From a virus: a stretch of 26,779 nucleotides of DNA. How positions within the stretch are numbered: the stretch's first letter is position 1; each line of letters begins with the position of its first letter. The position numbers and the translations under genes were made by a program. The notes under the pieces are model-generated. The model was not told the DNA's origin. It saw only the letters and a list, made by a program, of their open reading frames with translations, and made no database searches. Positions 2,044 to 7,682 of this stretch are shown here, in pieces. The stretch covers positions 1-26,779 of the IMG/VR virus record IMGVR_UViG_3300025869_000079; one strand, given 5' to 3'.

Positions 2044-4230
2044 TTAGGCTGCTGTGCCAACTACTTCATCAAATGAGATTCCAGACCTGGTTGCGACGAA
2101 CGTCAGAGTGATGTAGTTAATGGATCTCGCAGGTGAGATGAAGATGTCCGCTCTGAATTCGTTGTTATCAACGACAGCAGGCGTGTTGTTAGTTTCATCA
2201 CAAACAACTGTGAACTCTTCAATTCCTCTTTGTGCCTGAATATCTCTCAGGTAAGGAATGACAATGTTGACGAAGTTCTCTCTTGTTTCCTCATCGTTAA
2301 GTTCAAAGAGTTGATCATTTGCTGCTTCTTCAAGTGCTTGCTCGACTGTGAGGAACAGGCGGCGAACGTTGATTCTATCAAACGCAGAACTGTAACTGAG
2401 ACCAGTCTTGTCGCCAAATAGGATGACTCCTTGACCGTTCTGATTGATTACAGGGTTGATTCTGTTGCCATAGAGCACATCTCTCTGTGCCTTATTGGGA
2501 TTATACGCTAGTTTGACAGCATTGTTAATGTTGCCTCTTTGCTGACCAGCAGGTGAGAACCAAGGGAATGATTCAATGCTAGTTCTAACCATCAGACCCG
2601 CAATGTCACCATTCAAAGGAACATAACGGAACTCATTGTTGAATCTGTCATATGTATACTTATATCCACTATCAAATACCGCGTAGGACGAGGAAGTGAT
2701 AGGTGAGTAATACTTGACCAGATTGCTAGTCTGTGTAGTTGTATTTGTTTCTCCAACAACATTTGCTCTGTGTGGGGAAATGACTGCCATACAGTCTTTT
2801 CTTATTTCAGCGAGAGAGATAAGAAGATTTGCCTTCGCTTGAGACTGAAGTTCGGTTGAACATCCAGGACCCATCAGCAGATAATCAACTGAGATTTCGT
2901 CTCTATTAGAGAAAAGGTTGTATGAGGTGTTAAGATCACCCAAGGTTCCTGCCATTCCGCCGTTAGCACCATAATCGGCACCACCAAGCAGATTGTAACC
3001 AACGTTACCAATTGCGGCAAACTGAACATCTCTTGCCTCTTGACCCCACAGACCATCACCTCTAGTTACAGGGGAGAAGTCAGTTGAGAATCCAGTTGCG
3101 ACAGGAGTAGTTCCGTGGAAGGTATCTGCTGCCTGCGAGGGGTTGTAACCAGGGAAGACCCAATCTGAATTAATTGCCAGATAGTTCTTATAGTAGTTCT
3201 TAAGAGGTGCATCTCCATCTGCTTCGGAGTCAAGTGCCTTCGACAAGAAGGACCACGACTCAAGAAGATTACCAGCAATACCAGTTACAGAACCAGTATC
3301 ATCTACAACTGCAACGTGGATTGCATCACCACCACCGCCTCTTGAAGAGGAGAAGTTTGAATCAACCGGTTTTGGAGCAATTGTTTTCCAGAAGATTGCG
3401 CTATTATTGATCTGCAGTTTCTGCTGATCATACCAGTCTTCGGCGGAAGTAGCGGAAGTAGTTCCTTCTGAACCACCAGCGTTGTTGCGAATTGTAAGAA
3501 CGTCTGCTGCTTCAAATGATTGAGCAGGATTGTTCTCTTGGTAAGCAATAGGGAACTCAGTTCCAGCAGTGTTAACTCTGGAAACTACTTTAACATCAAT
3601 TGTGCTATTACTATTTGTAGAATCAGTTGAAACACCAGTAATGATGCCCTTCAGCATTCCATTAAAGGTTGTTGTTGTTCCTACGCCAGGAATTGCTACA
3701 GATGAAAGCACTGCAGTAACACCGTATCCAACAGTAATACCAAGACCAGCGAGGTTGCTGGTGCTAACACCAATAACTTGGTCTGCCGCGTTATCAATAG
3801 TACAAACTTTTAGTTGGTTTGCCCACTGACCAGGATTCCTACCAGCATAGTAGTAGGATGTTGAAGAAGTGTAGTTCTCTTGATAGTCATCGTAACTCTT
3901 GATCTTCAATGAAGCTGAAGAACCAATACCTACACCCGCGTTTGCGTTAACTAGGTTGCTTCCATCTGTTCTTACAACACTCAAAATACCACCGTAGTTG
4001 AGGTACTCAGATGCTGTCATCCAGTATTCGTATTGTCTGTCATTACTCTGAGGAGTGCCGAAAACATCGATCAACTCCTGCTGAGTTGTAATAGCAGTAG
4101 CTTCATCAATGGGTCCCAGTCTAAATGGACCAGCAATCGCTCCGATATTATCGAGAACGTTTTCTGCTCTACCTACTGTAAGATCAATTTCCCTGACTAA
4201 TACGCCCGGAGATAATTGAGGAGTCGCCAT
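2044..4230 (-). CDS. 18: Tail sheath protein gp18
   Basis: Contractile tail sheath subunit. It assembles as hexameric discs around the gp19 tube and contracts to drive the tube through the host envelope. It has 728 residues against 659 in T4. The N-terminus has the sheath signature LSPGVLVREIDLT (6-18) and GAIAGPFRLGPIDE (30-43). The conserved C-terminal part that interlocks subunits includes INVRRLFLTVEQALEEA and SPARSINYITLTFVA, followed by a terminal SGISFDEVVGTAA. The segment from about residue 100 to 290 is Gly/Ser/Thr-rich with 'GVSTDS'-type stretches and probably forms the variable outward-facing protrusion domain (inference). The start is well defined: AAGGAGAG at 4235-4242 is the strongest ribosome binding site in the window, as suits an abundant virion protein. 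A late-promoter-like CTAAATA lies upstream. Confidence 0.96.
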   Translation of the reverse strand: MATPQLSPGVLVREIDLTVGRAENVLDNIGAIAGPFRLGPIDEATAITTQQELIDVFGTPQSNDRQYEYWMTASEYLNYGGILSVVRTDGSNLVNANAGVGIGSSASLKIKSYDDYQENYTSSTSYYYAGRNPGQWANQLKVCTIDNAADQVIGVSTSNLAGLGITVGYGVTAVLSSVAIPGVGTTTTFNGMLKGIITGVSTDSTNSNSTIDVKVVSRVNTAGTEFPIAYQENNPAQSFEAADVLTIRNNAGGSEGTTSATSAEDWYDQQKLQINNSAIFWKTIAPKPVDSNFSSSRGGGGDAIHVAVVDDTGSVTGIAGNLLESWSFLSKALDSEADGDAPLKNYYKNYLAINSDWVFPGYNPSQAADTFHGTTPVATGFSTDFSPVTRGDGLWGQEARDVQFAAIGNVGYNLLGGADYGANGGMAGTLGDLNTSYNLFSNRDEISVDYLLMGPGCSTELQSQAKANLLISLAEIRKDCMAVISPHRANVVGETNTTTQTSNLVKYYSPITSSSYAVFDSGYKYTYDRFNNEFRYVPLNGDIAGLMVRTSIESFPWFSPAGQQRGNINNAVKLAYNPNKAQRDVLYGNRINPVINQNGQGVILFGDKTGLSYSSAFDRINVRRLFLTVEQALEEAANDQLFELNDEETRENFVNIVIPYLRDIQAQRGIEEFTVVCDETNNTPAVVDNNEFRADIFISPARSINYITLTFVATRSGISFDEVVGTAA

Positions 4231-4264: not shown

Positions 4265-4271
4265 TATTTAG
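4265..4271 (-). promoter_or_regulatory. Late promoter -10-like element (CTAAATA) for gp18
   Basis: CTAAATA, 34 bases before the gp18 ATG, is a variant of the T4 late octamer. The same heptamer occurs before gp13 (15977-15983). It sits in the longest gene-free gap of the window (4231-4311), where a promoter for the sheath-tube pair would be expected. Motif and position only. Confidence 0.5.
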
Positions 4272-4290
4272 AGTTTTGAGTAGTTTCAAT

Positions 4291-4311
4291 GACGTGAACA
4301 AGACGTGAACA
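4291..4311. repeat. Short tandem direct repeat, 10 bp twice
   Basis: GACGTGAACA occurs at 4291-4300 and again at 4302-4311, separated by one A. It sits directly after the stop codon of the small zinc-ribbon gene and upstream of the gp18 promoter-like element. The spacing of 11 bp, about one helical turn, would suit two protein contacts on one face of the DNA; no function is known to me. Confidence 0.5.
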
Positions 4312-4506
4312 CTAGGATTTCCTACTTTTCTTTATTCTATCTATTGTACATTTTTTACATTCATATGAATATGACGATGGAACTTGACCTTTATCTTTTC
4401 TAGTTCGATAAAATCCTTCTAATAAATTCTTTGTTTCGCCACAAGTCCGACATTTTCTTTCATTCAGAAAGAGATGATTTACATCGAATTGAGCGTCTAA
4501 ATCCAT
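4312..4506 (-). CDS. Small zinc-ribbon protein, translationally coupled to gp17
   Basis: A 64-residue basic protein with two CxxC knuckles (C19/C22 and C50/C53) separated by 27 residues, which should bind one zinc ion. The N-terminus is acidic (MDLDAQFDVNHLFLNERK) and the C-terminus is lysine/arginine-rich (IDRIKKSRKS). The chosen ATG overlaps the gp17 stop as TAATG, an arrangement typical of translational reinitiation. An in-frame ATG at 4521 would add five residues but overlaps gp17 by 16 bases and has no better ribosome site. The fold resembles the zinc ribbons found in front of HNH nucleases, but no HNH residues follow, so it is not a nuclease on its own. Its place between terminase and sheath suggests a role linked to packaging or late expression; that is inference. 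Function unknown. Confidence 0.75.
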   Translation of the reverse strand: MDLDAQFDVNHLFLNERKCRTCGETKNLLEGFYRTRKDKGQVPSSYSYECKKCTIDRIKKSRKS

Positions 4507-6152
4507 TATTGATAATCCCACATATAACTCATGTCCCCGTATTCATCGGTATGCCACCTGTCTCCTTCATTATCAACAAAAGAAGTATCATCGAATCCAT
4601 CGACAATGAAACCGAAGGGTGCCATATCTTGCTCGATCTGATTCTTTTGTTCCTCGTATAATCGTTTTCTGACATCTTGATCTGTCAACTCCTTAAAATA
4701 ATCTTGTGCCACCAACCAAGCATATATTACCAAACACATTGCCAGGTCATCATTACAACCTTCCTCTGCTTCAAATGAATTATGCTTTGATATAAAAGTG
4801 GTCAATTCTGAAATGACTTCATAATCGCTGAAGGTAAATTTATCTTCCTCAATCATAGTTTTCAAATTAAGAGAACCAACCTTCTTTACGGTCTTAGACA
4901 TCTTAACACCTAGTTGGGTTTTTTGACCAGAGAATCCTTGTCCAACAATTTGTCCTGCTCTACCTCTCATAGAACACATCAACAGATTTTGGTATTCTAG
5001 ATCATATTGTAAAATGCTCGCTACCTGATCTCCTACATCATTCACCTCACATAAGATGAATGCTTCATTATAACTTTTACACACTTCATAGATGACACTA
5101 GGAAATAGCATCGGTTTGATATTATTATCTCTATATTTTGCTACAAGTTTATGTGGAAATTCTGTAATATCGATCACAGTAAAGGCAGAGTAGTCCCCTC
5201 CAACACCTCTTGCTACGTCAACAGTACAAACATAATCATGATCCTTTATCACTGGTTGGTATACATCTAATCCAGCATTTCTTTTAATTGGATTTTCATA
5301 AATTAATGTTTTGAGTTTACTTGGAGCAATCAGAGTGTCAACAGAACCTAAAAACTCACACTCAAACTCAATTTTAAATTGTTGTTCGGATGTGTTCTTG
5401 ATGGTTTGTTCTTTCCATTTACCATCTCTACCTGGAACTTCTGACCAATGAACATCCGTTGGAACATATTCACTTCGACCTTTCTCCGCATCGTGCCACA
5501 TACGGTAGAAATGATTCATACCATGTGGTGTGGATACAATAATTACTTTCGTGCTTTGACCGGAAGTAATAGTAGGATAAACAGAGGCAAAGAAGGCATC
5601 TGCGATATGGTTTGGAACGAAAGCGAACTCATCGAGGAATAGGATATTGAACGACATGCCTCGGACAGCACTTGCAGATGTAGAAGCTGCCAGAATCTTT
5701 GATCCATTTTCTAACTCCAGAGAACCTTTGTTCCAAGATAGAATACCTTGCTGCATCCAGTTAGGCAAGTTCTCGTATGCAATTTGTAACCTACTTAAAA
5801 GTTCCCTGGCAGTCGATGCTTTGTTTGCTAGAATACCAATGTTTACACTATCATTGAAAACAGCATAATGTAGAAGAAAAGATACCACAGTCGTAGACTT
5901 ACCAGTCTGGCGTGGCATCTTACAAATATTAAATCTATTTGCGTGAAAATTATTAACTAACTTTTCTTGAAAGTCATACATCTTAAATGGTTGAAGACCA
6001 TGGTCCAACGTCACAATTTTTACATAGTGTGCCGCAAAGTAGACCGGGTCGTTCTTACATTTAATGTATTCTTCAATTTGTTCTTGTGTAAACTCAATTT
6101 GGGTATTCGCCTTTTTAAGGTTTGGATTCCCAAGATAGATATTTTCAGACAT
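4506..6152 (-). CDS. 17: Terminase large subunit gp17
   Basis: ATP-driven DNA packaging motor and headful nuclease, which docks on the gp20 portal. It has 548 residues against 610 in T4. The N-terminal ATPase has Walker A MPRQTGKST (79-87, K85), Walker B LFLDE (171-175, D174 and catalytic E175) and the coupling motif IIVSTPHG (204-211). The C-terminal RNase H-like nuclease has acidic residues in CTVDVARGVGGD (D312), FILCEVND (E369) and GCNDDLAM (D468/D469). The D312-E369 spacing of 57 equals the T4 D401-E458 spacing. All key residues are present, so the enzyme should be active. It starts 9 bases after the 506-residue gene, with no promoter between, and its stop overlaps the start of the zinc-ribbon gene. 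Unlike T4, it is not next to gp16. Confidence 0.97.
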   Translation of the reverse strand: MSENIYLGNPNLKKANTQIEFTQEQIEEYIKCKNDPVYFAAHYVKIVTLDHGLQPFKMYDFQEKLVNNFHANRFNICKMPRQTGKSTTVVSFLLHYAVFNDSVNIGILANKASTARELLSRLQIAYENLPNWMQQGILSWNKGSLELENGSKILAASTSASAVRGMSFNILFLDEFAFVPNHIADAFFASVYPTITSGQSTKVIIVSTPHGMNHFYRMWHDAEKGRSEYVPTDVHWSEVPGRDGKWKEQTIKNTSEQQFKIEFECEFLGSVDTLIAPSKLKTLIYENPIKRNAGLDVYQPVIKDHDYVCTVDVARGVGGDYSAFTVIDITEFPHKLVAKYRDNNIKPMLFPSVIYEVCKSYNEAFILCEVNDVGDQVASILQYDLEYQNLLMCSMRGRAGQIVGQGFSGQKTQLGVKMSKTVKKVGSLNLKTMIEEDKFTFSDYEVISELTTFISKHNSFEAEEGCNDDLAMCLVIYAWLVAQDYFKELTDQDVRKRLYEEQKNQIEQDMAPFGFIVDGFDDTSFVDNEGDRWHTDEYGDMSYMWDYQ

Positions 6153-6161
6153 AAAGAAGTA

Positions 6162-7682
6162 TTAGCAGTTCCAAGCTCTTAATGATTTATTTATTCTGGA
6201 ATCAGGATCATTGGCAGTTTTCGCAGAAGTTAGTTTTTTCTTCATACCCTTCATTCTTGCACAGAAGGATGCTCTTCTTTTGTTGCCCTTCTTTTTAGAT
6301 GGTGCTTTCAGGTCAGAACCAGGGTTCTCTCTTTCATAAGATTTACGACCCTTCTCATTCAATCCTCCTGATTGATTCTTACCAGACTTTTTTGTCCATG
6401 CTGCTGCCTCCTCGATGTCTTCATCGATAGCGTCTTGATATCCAGTGGTATCTGGACCAAGATTAGGAACAGACTCTTCATGAGTCATACCAACAATAAT
6501 TTTATTATTTTTGGTTTTCTTATCCATATAATTAATGGATTGTTTTTGCTGGTCAGCATATCCTTTTCCTTTTGAAGGAGCAAGACGTTTTTCACCGGAC
6601 TTTCTTTCGGCAGATGCTGCTTTTCTCATTTCAGTATCTTGACCCTTCACTGCTTCAGTAACTTCAGTTTCTTCGGACATGTCAGGTACTCTAATATAGG
6701 TATCTTTATTGTCCAACATAGAAGCATCGAATCTCATCACCTTGGAACCAGGATAAACCTTATCCATCGCTGCTTGAACTTGCCTTTTATTAGGTTGCTT
6801 GAGTTCAGGGAAGAACAACTTCATCATCATATACTTCCCTCTCCAAAGGAAAGATACGAGATAAACTTTCCCTGATTCAGATGGGATTCTTTCAATACCT
6901 TCACCAAGAGTCAATCTCTCAAGGATTCTGTCTTTCTCGGATTGTGTTTCTTCATTTTTGGGTACACAGTTGGGGACCATCTTGCCACCTTTCTTCTTCA
7001 TGCCTTTTTGAGTATATCCAACCCAGCATTTCTCATTAAGAACATCAACCTCAATACCAGCATTTCTCATTGCATTGATTTGCATTTGAGAGAGTTCTGG
7101 AAGGTTCTCAAACTCCTCTTTCTTAGTACTATTACCATAGTTCTTAGCACCCTTCTTACGGCACTGTACGAGTCTTCCAGAGGCATATGCTGACGGCCAT
7201 ACAGAAGCACTTGCTTTTACTTTATGATAGCAGGCATCTTTCTTACCACTACTTTTGCCCTTCTTATCTTCTTCAGTCATTGCTTCAATATCATACGTCT
7301 CATATGACTCGATATCAGGTGCGTTTGTTTTCATGGGTTTTGGTTTGATAATGTCTTGTACAACTGCAAAAGGTTCACCGTATGCATCAGTAAGTTCAAT
7401 ATCTTCTTTTACTTTTTTTGGTTTGTCTGTAGAAACATATGTTGGTTTTGCAGCACCAGTCTTGGATTGTTGACCAGGATCTGCTGCTTTTTTGCGACGG
7501 GCAGCAGATTTTCTTTCTGCTTTAGTCATACTTGCCCTTTTAGATGATGAGACGCACTTAGGAGTTCCTTCACCAGGTTTATCACTTGCACAAGTTCCAC
7601 CAGTGACCACATTAACCCATCCAGACTTACCGTCTTTGGATTTTGATCCCTTGAACCATTTATGAAGATTGCCTTCGTTCAT
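6162..7682 (-). CDS. Mosaic basic protein with four paired-cysteine modules, unknown function
   Basis: A 506-residue protein I cannot assign. It contains exactly eight cysteines, two in each of four basic segments: C31/C43 in a WFKGSKSKDGKSGW...KPGEGTPKC segment followed by a Lys/Arg-rich stretch; C151/C174 around VWPSAYASGRLVQC (resembling DUF5872-type sequences); C219/C239 in EKCWVGYTQKGMKKKGGK; and C474/C506 in SFCARMKGMKKKLTS...LRAWNC. Acidic linkers join them. Between the third and fourth lies a cysteine-free alpha/beta-looking segment (about 271-334: VYLVSFLWRGKYMMMKLFFP ... VYPGSKVMRFDAS). The pairs could be zinc half-sites or disulphides, and the charge suggests nucleic-acid or capsid contact; both are inference. 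A perfect TATAAATA late element precedes it and gp17 follows 9 bases after its stop, so it heads the gp17 unit. Confidence 0.85.
   Translation of the reverse strand: MNEGNLHKWFKGSKSKDGKSGWVNVVTGGTCASDKPGEGTPKCVSSSKRASMTKAERKSAARRKKAADPGQQSKTGAAKPTYVSTDKPKKVKEDIELTDAYGEPFAVVQDIIKPKPMKTNAPDIESYETYDIEAMTEEDKKGKSSGKKDACYHKVKASASVWPSAYASGRLVQCRKKGAKNYGNSTKKEEFENLPELSQMQINAMRNAGIEVDVLNEKCWVGYTQKGMKKKGGKMVPNCVPKNEETQSEKDRILERLTLGEGIERIPSESGKVYLVSFLWRGKYMMMKLFFPELKQPNKRQVQAAMDKVYPGSKVMRFDASMLDNKDTYIRVPDMSEETEVTEAVKGQDTEMRKAASAERKSGEKRLAPSKGKGYADQQKQSINYMDKKTKNNKIIVGMTHEESVPNLGPDTTGYQDAIDEDIEEAAAWTKKSGKNQSGGLNEKGRKSYERENPGSDLKAPSKKKGNKRRASFCARMKGMKKKLTSAKTANDPDSRINKSLRAWNC

Follow-up and report, generated by a model that had tools for sequence, protein, structure and literature searches.

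Between the large terminase gene (gp17) and the tail sheath gene (gp18) of a T4-like cyanomyovirus lies a small zinc-finger gene which encodes no nuclease, is held under purifying selection, and co-occurs near-perfectly with a conserved site upstream of the gp18 late promoter, a single-copy site fixed in phase with the TAAATA core of that promoter. Judged from sequence comparison, it is an evenly balanced proposition that the zinc finger binds this site and regulates the transcription of gp18. What we infer comprises the protein as the binder of the box, its action on transcription and the sign of its effect, activation of gp18 being more likely than repression. The window, that is the whole stretch of DNA analysed, is the 26,779-base virus record IMGVR_UViG_3300025869_000079, which carries the T4-like virion block on its minus strand. 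The features concerned, in the order in which they would be transcribed, are:

4506..6152, minus strand: gp17, large terminase, the upstream neighbour of the zinc-finger gene
4504..4508, minus strand: TAATG, in which the gp17 stop (4508-4506) overlaps the start codon (4506-4504)
4312..4506, minus strand: zinc-finger gene, 64 amino acids, ATG at 4506 and stop at 4314-4312; CxxC-x27-CxxC, without the C-terminal YPDW tail of the family
4302..4310, minus strand: half-site 1, GTTCACGTC, the TTCAC element, at about -49 of the gp18 late promoter; TTCA[C/T] is conserved in 72 dereplicated relatives
4291..4299, minus strand: half-site 2, GTTCACGTC, identical to half-site 1 and 11 bp downstream of it; GTTTCCCCA in most relatives
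4284..4289, minus strand: TTGAAA, third part of the box; T, then AA, conserved in 72 dereplicated relatives
4265..4270, minus strand: TAAATA, core of the gp18 late promoter, in the context CTAAATATT
2044..4230, minus strand: gp18, tail sheath, downstream of the late promoter, assigned by tblastn synteny

An initial annotation had placed a zinc-ribbon mini-protein at 4312-4521 without giving a strand. The gene is real and lies on the minus strand, plus-strand translation of the interval meeting many stops, but its upstream boundary has to be moved: 4521 marks the first in-frame GTG, which would yield 69 amino acids, whereas relatives keep the ATG at 4506-4504 as start, giving a protein of 64. 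Read on the minus strand, the remaining description holds well, including the overlap of the start with the gp17 stop as TAATG, the two CxxC pairs (C19/C22 and C50/C53 in the 64-residue protein), the basic tail (15 K/R against 9 D/E over the whole protein) and the absence of a nuclease motif. The protein has a single histidine, H11. Upstream of gp17, the window also holds a lysine-rich open reading frame of 506 amino acids with a cysteine-containing C-terminal segment (6162-7682, minus strand).

The window protein matches PHROG_4723 ("endonuclease VII") over residues 1-63 with an E-value of 4.5e-31, and this full-length profile match, along with the position between gp17 and gp18, places the gene by its sequence in the cyanomyovirus family PHROG_4723/T4-GC282. 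The family is found by tblastn in 113 phage records, all of them cyanophages or marine single-cell virus records, with identities of 57-67% among the matches listed, and in IMG/VR at least 598 stretches code for relatives. Together with the cysteines shared by every distinct protein compared, these matches put the gene well outside what chance would produce. A gp17 at least 60% identical to that of the window occurs in about 475 records, against the 113 with the zinc-finger gene; by count of these redundant records, the gene is missing from most cyanophages. In ACG-2014d, Syn19, P-HM1 and ACG-2014f, gp17 is followed directly by gp18, and in T6, KVP40 and a Stenotrophomonas T4-like phage the gap between the two holds no gene, in keeping with the initial annotation, which had regarded the gene as not present at this place in T4. 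On a gp17 tree of 59 rows, gene presence requires 6 changes, compared with 18.5 when labels are shuffled (0/500 as low), which indicates that the gene is inherited with a few losses or transfers; some sister clades have it and some do not.

The protein family is thus already in the databases, under a misleading name. The gene appears in records as endonuclease VII, PacI protein or recombinase endonuclease subunit, and is unannotated in several public phage records, including S-H38 (L443) and S-CAM9. The S-PM2 and S-SSM7 copies carry the label T4-GC 282. In the available portion of PMC3037559 the labels T4-GC228 and T4-GC282 are apparently swapped between the main text and the legend of Fig. 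S7; the record annotations side with the legend, 282 standing beside gp17 in S-PM2 and S-SSM7, and 228 before gp17 in Syn19.

No nuclease is recognisable in the window protein. It matches no Pfam family above cut-off and gives no match to PF02945 (Endo VII) at E <= 10, nor does that profile appear among 25 listed families matched by 50 relatives at E <= 1; F-CphI, the positive control for this profile, scores 91.2 bits. Of the catalytic Asp-His-x-His with Arg and Asn, the DHxH is found neither in the 64-residue sequence nor in the family consensus, and no HNH or beta-beta-alpha-metal nuclease matches the protein or its relatives above cut-off. An ancestral connection is nonetheless apparent, since hhalign aligns the protein to residues 9-53 of F-CphI, the finger only, with a probability of 94.2% (E 1.2e-7), and PHROG_4723 stands next to endonuclease VII families in profile comparison. 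In AlphaFold2 models (pLDDT 71.5 and 71.9) one CxxC lies in a hairpin and the other stands where a long helix begins, a predicted fold which, with medium confidence, lies closer to a treble clef than to a zinc ribbon. Searching the PDB by sequence gave a best E-value of 1.2, to RPB9, and Foldseek found no PDB entry at E <= 0.001. A second look brought a weak structural match to Hpy99I 61-106 (Z 3.5), the protein which served as template for the F-CphI model in print (PMC6083498). The only BFVD entries at E <= 0.001 are an S-CAM3 "Endonuclease VII" and the P-SSM2 protein.

According to the available text of Sullivan et al. 2010 (PMC3037559), T4-GC282 is a putative homing endonuclease which arose by a single insertion at the gp17 3' end; catalytic residues are retained in P-SSM2 only, and other copies are likely to be non-functional remnants. 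The homing-endonuclease origin is very likely correct. The label "non-functional" does not fit, given the retention of the four cysteines, the YPDW or YPNW tail and the invariant residues, and a dN/dS of 0.275. Thus CxxC...CxxC is present in 177/177 distinct proteins, the C-terminus is YPDW in 167 of the 177 and YPNW in 2, and R17, Y33, Y48 and K51 are invariant among 52 aligned sequences. The dN/dS value, summed over 66 disjoint pairs (median 0.116), shows the gene to be under purifying selection; the gp17 C-terminus, taken as a control, gives 0.071 over 43 pairs. The YPDW tail is a regularity observed across the 177 proteins rather than a defining family feature in print, and is missing in 8 of them, seven from the window clade and that of S-H38. 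In S-PM2 the pattern of YPDW followed by a stop marks the zinc-finger gene only; it is found in none of six other records, and YPDW is absent from gp17 C-termini.

The initial annotation took the overlapping start to imply a ratio to gp17 and hence a possible motor-associated role. The gp17 stop and the start of the gene overlap by 1 nt in 190/269 loci and by 4 nt in 6; the gap is 0-20 nt in 21 and exceeds 20 nt, with other genes inserted, in 41, while the gp17 end lies off the locus in 11, leaving 258 loci in which it is visible. From these counts, coupling to gp17 is usual, not obligatory. Among the 41/258 loci with the wider gap, the genes lying between gp17 and the zinc-finger gene take up as much as about 1.5 kb; in one of these loci, L067, the insert of 971 nt contains a 189-residue open reading frame with an HExxH-like stretch (HEAWHAAQ), possibly a metallopeptidase. 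The distance from gene to gp18, meanwhile, is 75-96 nt in 269/270 loci and 340 in the remaining one. A variable gap on one side and a near-constant distance on the other weaken the idea of a fixed ratio to gp17, and the motor-associated role is left unsupported, with 41/258 loci more than 20 nt from gp17 and most cyanophage gp17 records lacking the gene altogether. The gene moves together with the gp18 side, and its constant partner is the gp18 late promoter. A conserved co-occurrence between gp17 and gp18, which had been suggested as a check, is indeed seen, in that placement across loci is non-random. The two outcomes named as contrary, a random distribution of homologues and loss of the cysteines in close relatives, did not occur, all four cysteines being kept in the 177/177 proteins.

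TAAATA precedes gp18 in 270/270 loci with the gene and in 142/142 without it, and is found within 60 nt upstream of the zinc-finger gene in 0/110 loci, from which it follows that the gene is part of the gp17 message, its end lying immediately ahead of the gp18 promoter. The word TTTCCCC stands exactly 27 nt before TAAATA in 207/270 gene-bearing loci, with 6 further cases at 26, 1 at 28 and 3 at other spacings; the exact word is missing in 53 of the 270. It occurs in 0/142 loci without the gene. The TTCAC element lies about 11 bp upstream of TTTCCCC. Counted from TAAATA over 72 dereplicated sites, the conserved columns are TTCAC at -38 to -34, TTTCCCC at -27 to -21, T at -18 and AA at -15/-14, the columns between these elements being unconserved; on the T4 numbering, with TAAATA at -11 to -6, the two half-sites come to lie at about -49 and -38. 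The spacing of 27 is kept in 207/217 motif-bearing loci, whereas the modal share of the flanking spacers is 28% from gene stop to motif and 23% from TAAATA to the gp18 ATG. The box is therefore phased to the promoter.

Eight-mers at least 7/8 identical recur at offset 11 in 7/72 dereplicated sites and at none of the other offsets from 6 to 18; this test was made in a fixed register, so that the S-H38 pair, one turn further up, is outside the 7. The doubled half-sites have five different sequences: GTTCACGTC in the window clade, TTTTCGTCC in locus L009, TTTCGTC in S-SZBM1, TTCATGCA in S-H38 and TTYCC.C (L420, P-RSM6). To judge by these repeats, the box resembles an operator made of direct repeats that is read from a single face of the helix. 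An RNA hairpin was considered for the same stretch and rejected, RNAalifold giving 0.0 on the 72 phased sites and single folds a mean z of +0.25; pairing of the TTTC/GAAA arms is possible at 3 or 4 of 4 positions in 58/72 sites. A general late-promoter element was likewise rejected, the box being absent from other late promoters of the same genomes. The S-PM2 genome has one box. Among 18 whole records, exactly one box (<=1 mismatch) is present in 10 of the 15 with the gene, and these single boxes sit at gp18 wherever coordinates were matched; the other 5/15 give no box match, their gp18 sites departing from the pattern, and of the 3 records without the gene one has a one-mismatch match elsewhere.

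The association of box and gene is also visible when the search is made independently of the protein. Scanning IMG/VR for TTCA-N7-TTTCCCC-N20-TAAATA gave 119 places among the matches listed, and at 111 of these the gene lies immediately upstream; gp18 is visible at 109 of them, and the remaining 2 fall at a contig end. Of the other places, 2 have gp18 but the contig does not extend to the gene side, 3 have gp18 without the gene next to the box, and 3 are chance matches that lack gp18. In one of those lacking an adjacent gene, L469, the zinc-finger gene is one small open reading frame further up. In the two others, L498 and L551 (2/119 listed, both on short contigs), the box is kept and an open reading frame of 78-79 amino acids fills the slot between gp17 and gp18 (L498:1100-1336, oriented by the box; L551:4035-4274), which from its motif we take to be NifU-C-like. 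Similar ends occur upstream of the zinc finger in L315, L364, L374 and L407. A tree-aware test of the link between gene and box yields 3 well-supported independent contrasts, all concordant (p = 0.25), and shared linkage alone, the gene and site being neighbours, could lie behind the co-occurrence.

Both lineages lacking YPDW, the window clade and S-H38, have no TTTCCCC half-site and doubled TTCA half-sites instead, which is suggestive (n = 2) of a half-site type that changes along with the protein tail; L009 and S-SZBM1, which bear YPDW, also depart from TTTCCCC. Promoters of gp18 have the canonical TATAAATA less often where the gene is present than where it is absent (14/270 versus 60/142). 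The P20 control is also non-canonical (1/50), and behaving alike it deprives this -10 difference of any bearing on activation. As would be expected of a promoter-specific factor, there is a conserved site of binding type, with a fixed phase and co-occurrence with the gene (207/270 versus 0/142). The initial annotation had offered a late-transcription factor as its other guess. Because the gp18 late promoter gains a conserved upstream site only where the gene is present, this part of the guess is favoured in the form of a promoter-specific factor and not of a general one; a late-transcription role is plausible while an association with packaging is unsupported.

It is attractive to consider that a homing endonuclease of the Endo VII type (DHHRN, F-CphI-like) lost its nuclease domain but left behind its N-terminal finger, and that this small non-enzymatic finger was kept and put to use. 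It would be translated from the gp17 message, in most cases through stop/start coupling, and would bind a bipartite DNA site whose half-sites, near -49 and -38, are separated by a helical turn of 11 bp. So bound, it would adjust transcription of the tail-sheath gene from the gp18 late promoter, and a single late promoter would thereby be given an upstream element absent from T4 late promoters. At -49/-38 the finger may contact the late polymerase or its clamp, activating gp18, and the YPDW end, which we infer to be a partner-docking peptide, would be a natural means of doing so.

Other explanations have to be weighed against this one. That the gene is what remains, decaying and without function, of a homing endonuclease that entered the gp17 3' end a single time, as stated by the authors of PMC3037559 in its available part, is very unlikely. 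Homology to the F-CphI finger with loss of the nuclease domain, the carriage of a finger with a degenerate Endo VII half by P-SSM2 and its kin, and the existence of sister clades with and without the gene all agree with such an origin, but the open reading frames are intact, the cysteines and the YPDW/YPNW end (169/177) persist, and the dN/dS and invariant residues already strain the reading. Slightly less improbable, though still distinctly doubtful, is a packaging factor working with gp17, for which the box would be a packaging-start (pac-like) or motor-loading site. The gp17 overlap in 196/258 loci and the single copy of the box per genome speak for this, as do the small nucleases or zinc proteins known beside terminases, such as the HK97 case as cited in the available text of PMC10448857. 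The box, however, is locked in phase to the late promoter and not to the gene, the gene stays by gp18 where other genes part it from gp17, and most cyanophages package without it.

The box might instead be an autonomous cis element serving the host or phage RNA polymerase or another factor, for instance as an extended upstream element for gp55-RNAP, with the finger doing something unrelated, such as binding nucleic acid in late infection. The two loci with a NifU-like gene in the slot and the box kept would be explained in this way, and linkage can account for the co-occurrence where only 3 contrasts are supported. Against it stand the absence of TTTCCCC from all 142 loci without the gene, the disuse of the box at other late promoters of the same genomes, and the shift of half-site type with the protein tail in two lineages; we consider such an element unlikely. 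About as unlikely is a variant of the reading preferred here with the sign reversed, a repressor or roadblock, in which the bound finger stops read-through of the gp17 message into gp18 or delays gp18 until late. The site is placed where a bound protein would touch or block the polymerase, and the gene is upstream of the site in the direction of read-through. Nothing decisive opposes this, save that roadblocks less typically show an exact spacing to TAAATA than do activators or polymerase contacts.

If the preferred reading, of a finger that binds the box and regulates gp18, is true, late control in abundant ocean viruses would have an additional, promoter-specific layer, and the finger would be a clear-cut example of part of a selfish gene becoming a regulator; the "endonuclease VII" label on many records would be corrected. 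The claim involves one protein of 64-76 amino acids and one DNA of about 30 bp, and so is directly testable. In the passages of the open-licence literature consulted, we found nothing on a box at the gp18 promoter or on the function of the zinc-finger protein, and the available part of PMC3037559 makes no mention of the box; as far as these searches show, neither the promoter box nor its association with the gene has been described.

A number of comparisons can be drawn with known systems. Terminase-associated HNH proteins of the HK97 gp74 type possess an HNH motif which the window protein lacks. F-CphI (S-PM2p177, a DHHRN homing endonuclease; PMC6083498, available text) shares the homologous N-terminal finger, but has in addition a C-terminal Endo VII catalytic domain and is located by psbA. 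The 121-residue P-SSM2 protein (P0002) has the same finger in its N-terminal 58-62 residues; it differs in its degenerate Endo VII second half (10.6 bits against PF02945, cut-off 23.6), in having no YPDW, and in lying by psbA and not gp17, and TTTCCCC is found neither in its locus nor in those of its P-SSM2-like kin. Proteins of this kind, in which the finger is joined to a degenerate Endo VII half, make up a small family of their own (L086:6001-6366 and L255-L261), and by eye the DHxH of Endo VII is missing from all of them, against the statement in print for P-SSM2. The T4-GC282/PHROG_4723 copies occupy the same place between gp17 and gp18 and belong to the same sequence family as the window gene; they have been labelled nuclease or dead homing endonuclease, whereas proteins of the window type are nuclease-free and under selection, and the window clade, unlike most members, has no YPDW tail.

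The likeness to gp33 and gp55 of T4 resides in where the finger is proposed to act, on the upstream side of the -10-like element of the late promoter. According to the available text of PMC2988020, T4 late promoters have a -10-like core only and no -35 element, and gp33 fills the place of sigma domain 4 without recognising DNA sequence; a conserved, phased upstream site matters for this reason. Homologues of genes 55, 33 and 45 occur in cyanomyoviruses, together with late promoters of the form NATAAATA (PMC2984593, available text). It is conceivable, if speculative, that the finger stands in for sigma domain 4 in a sequence-specific manner at a single late promoter of the T4 type, reading direct repeats at -49/-38, contacting polymerase or clamp via YPDW and coupling tail-sheath synthesis to expression of the packaging motor, with tail and half-site having changed together in the window clade. 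Where T4 gp33 lacks sequence recognition and T4 late promoters lack a -35 element, the gp18 promoter of cyanophages with the zinc-finger gene has a conserved upstream element.
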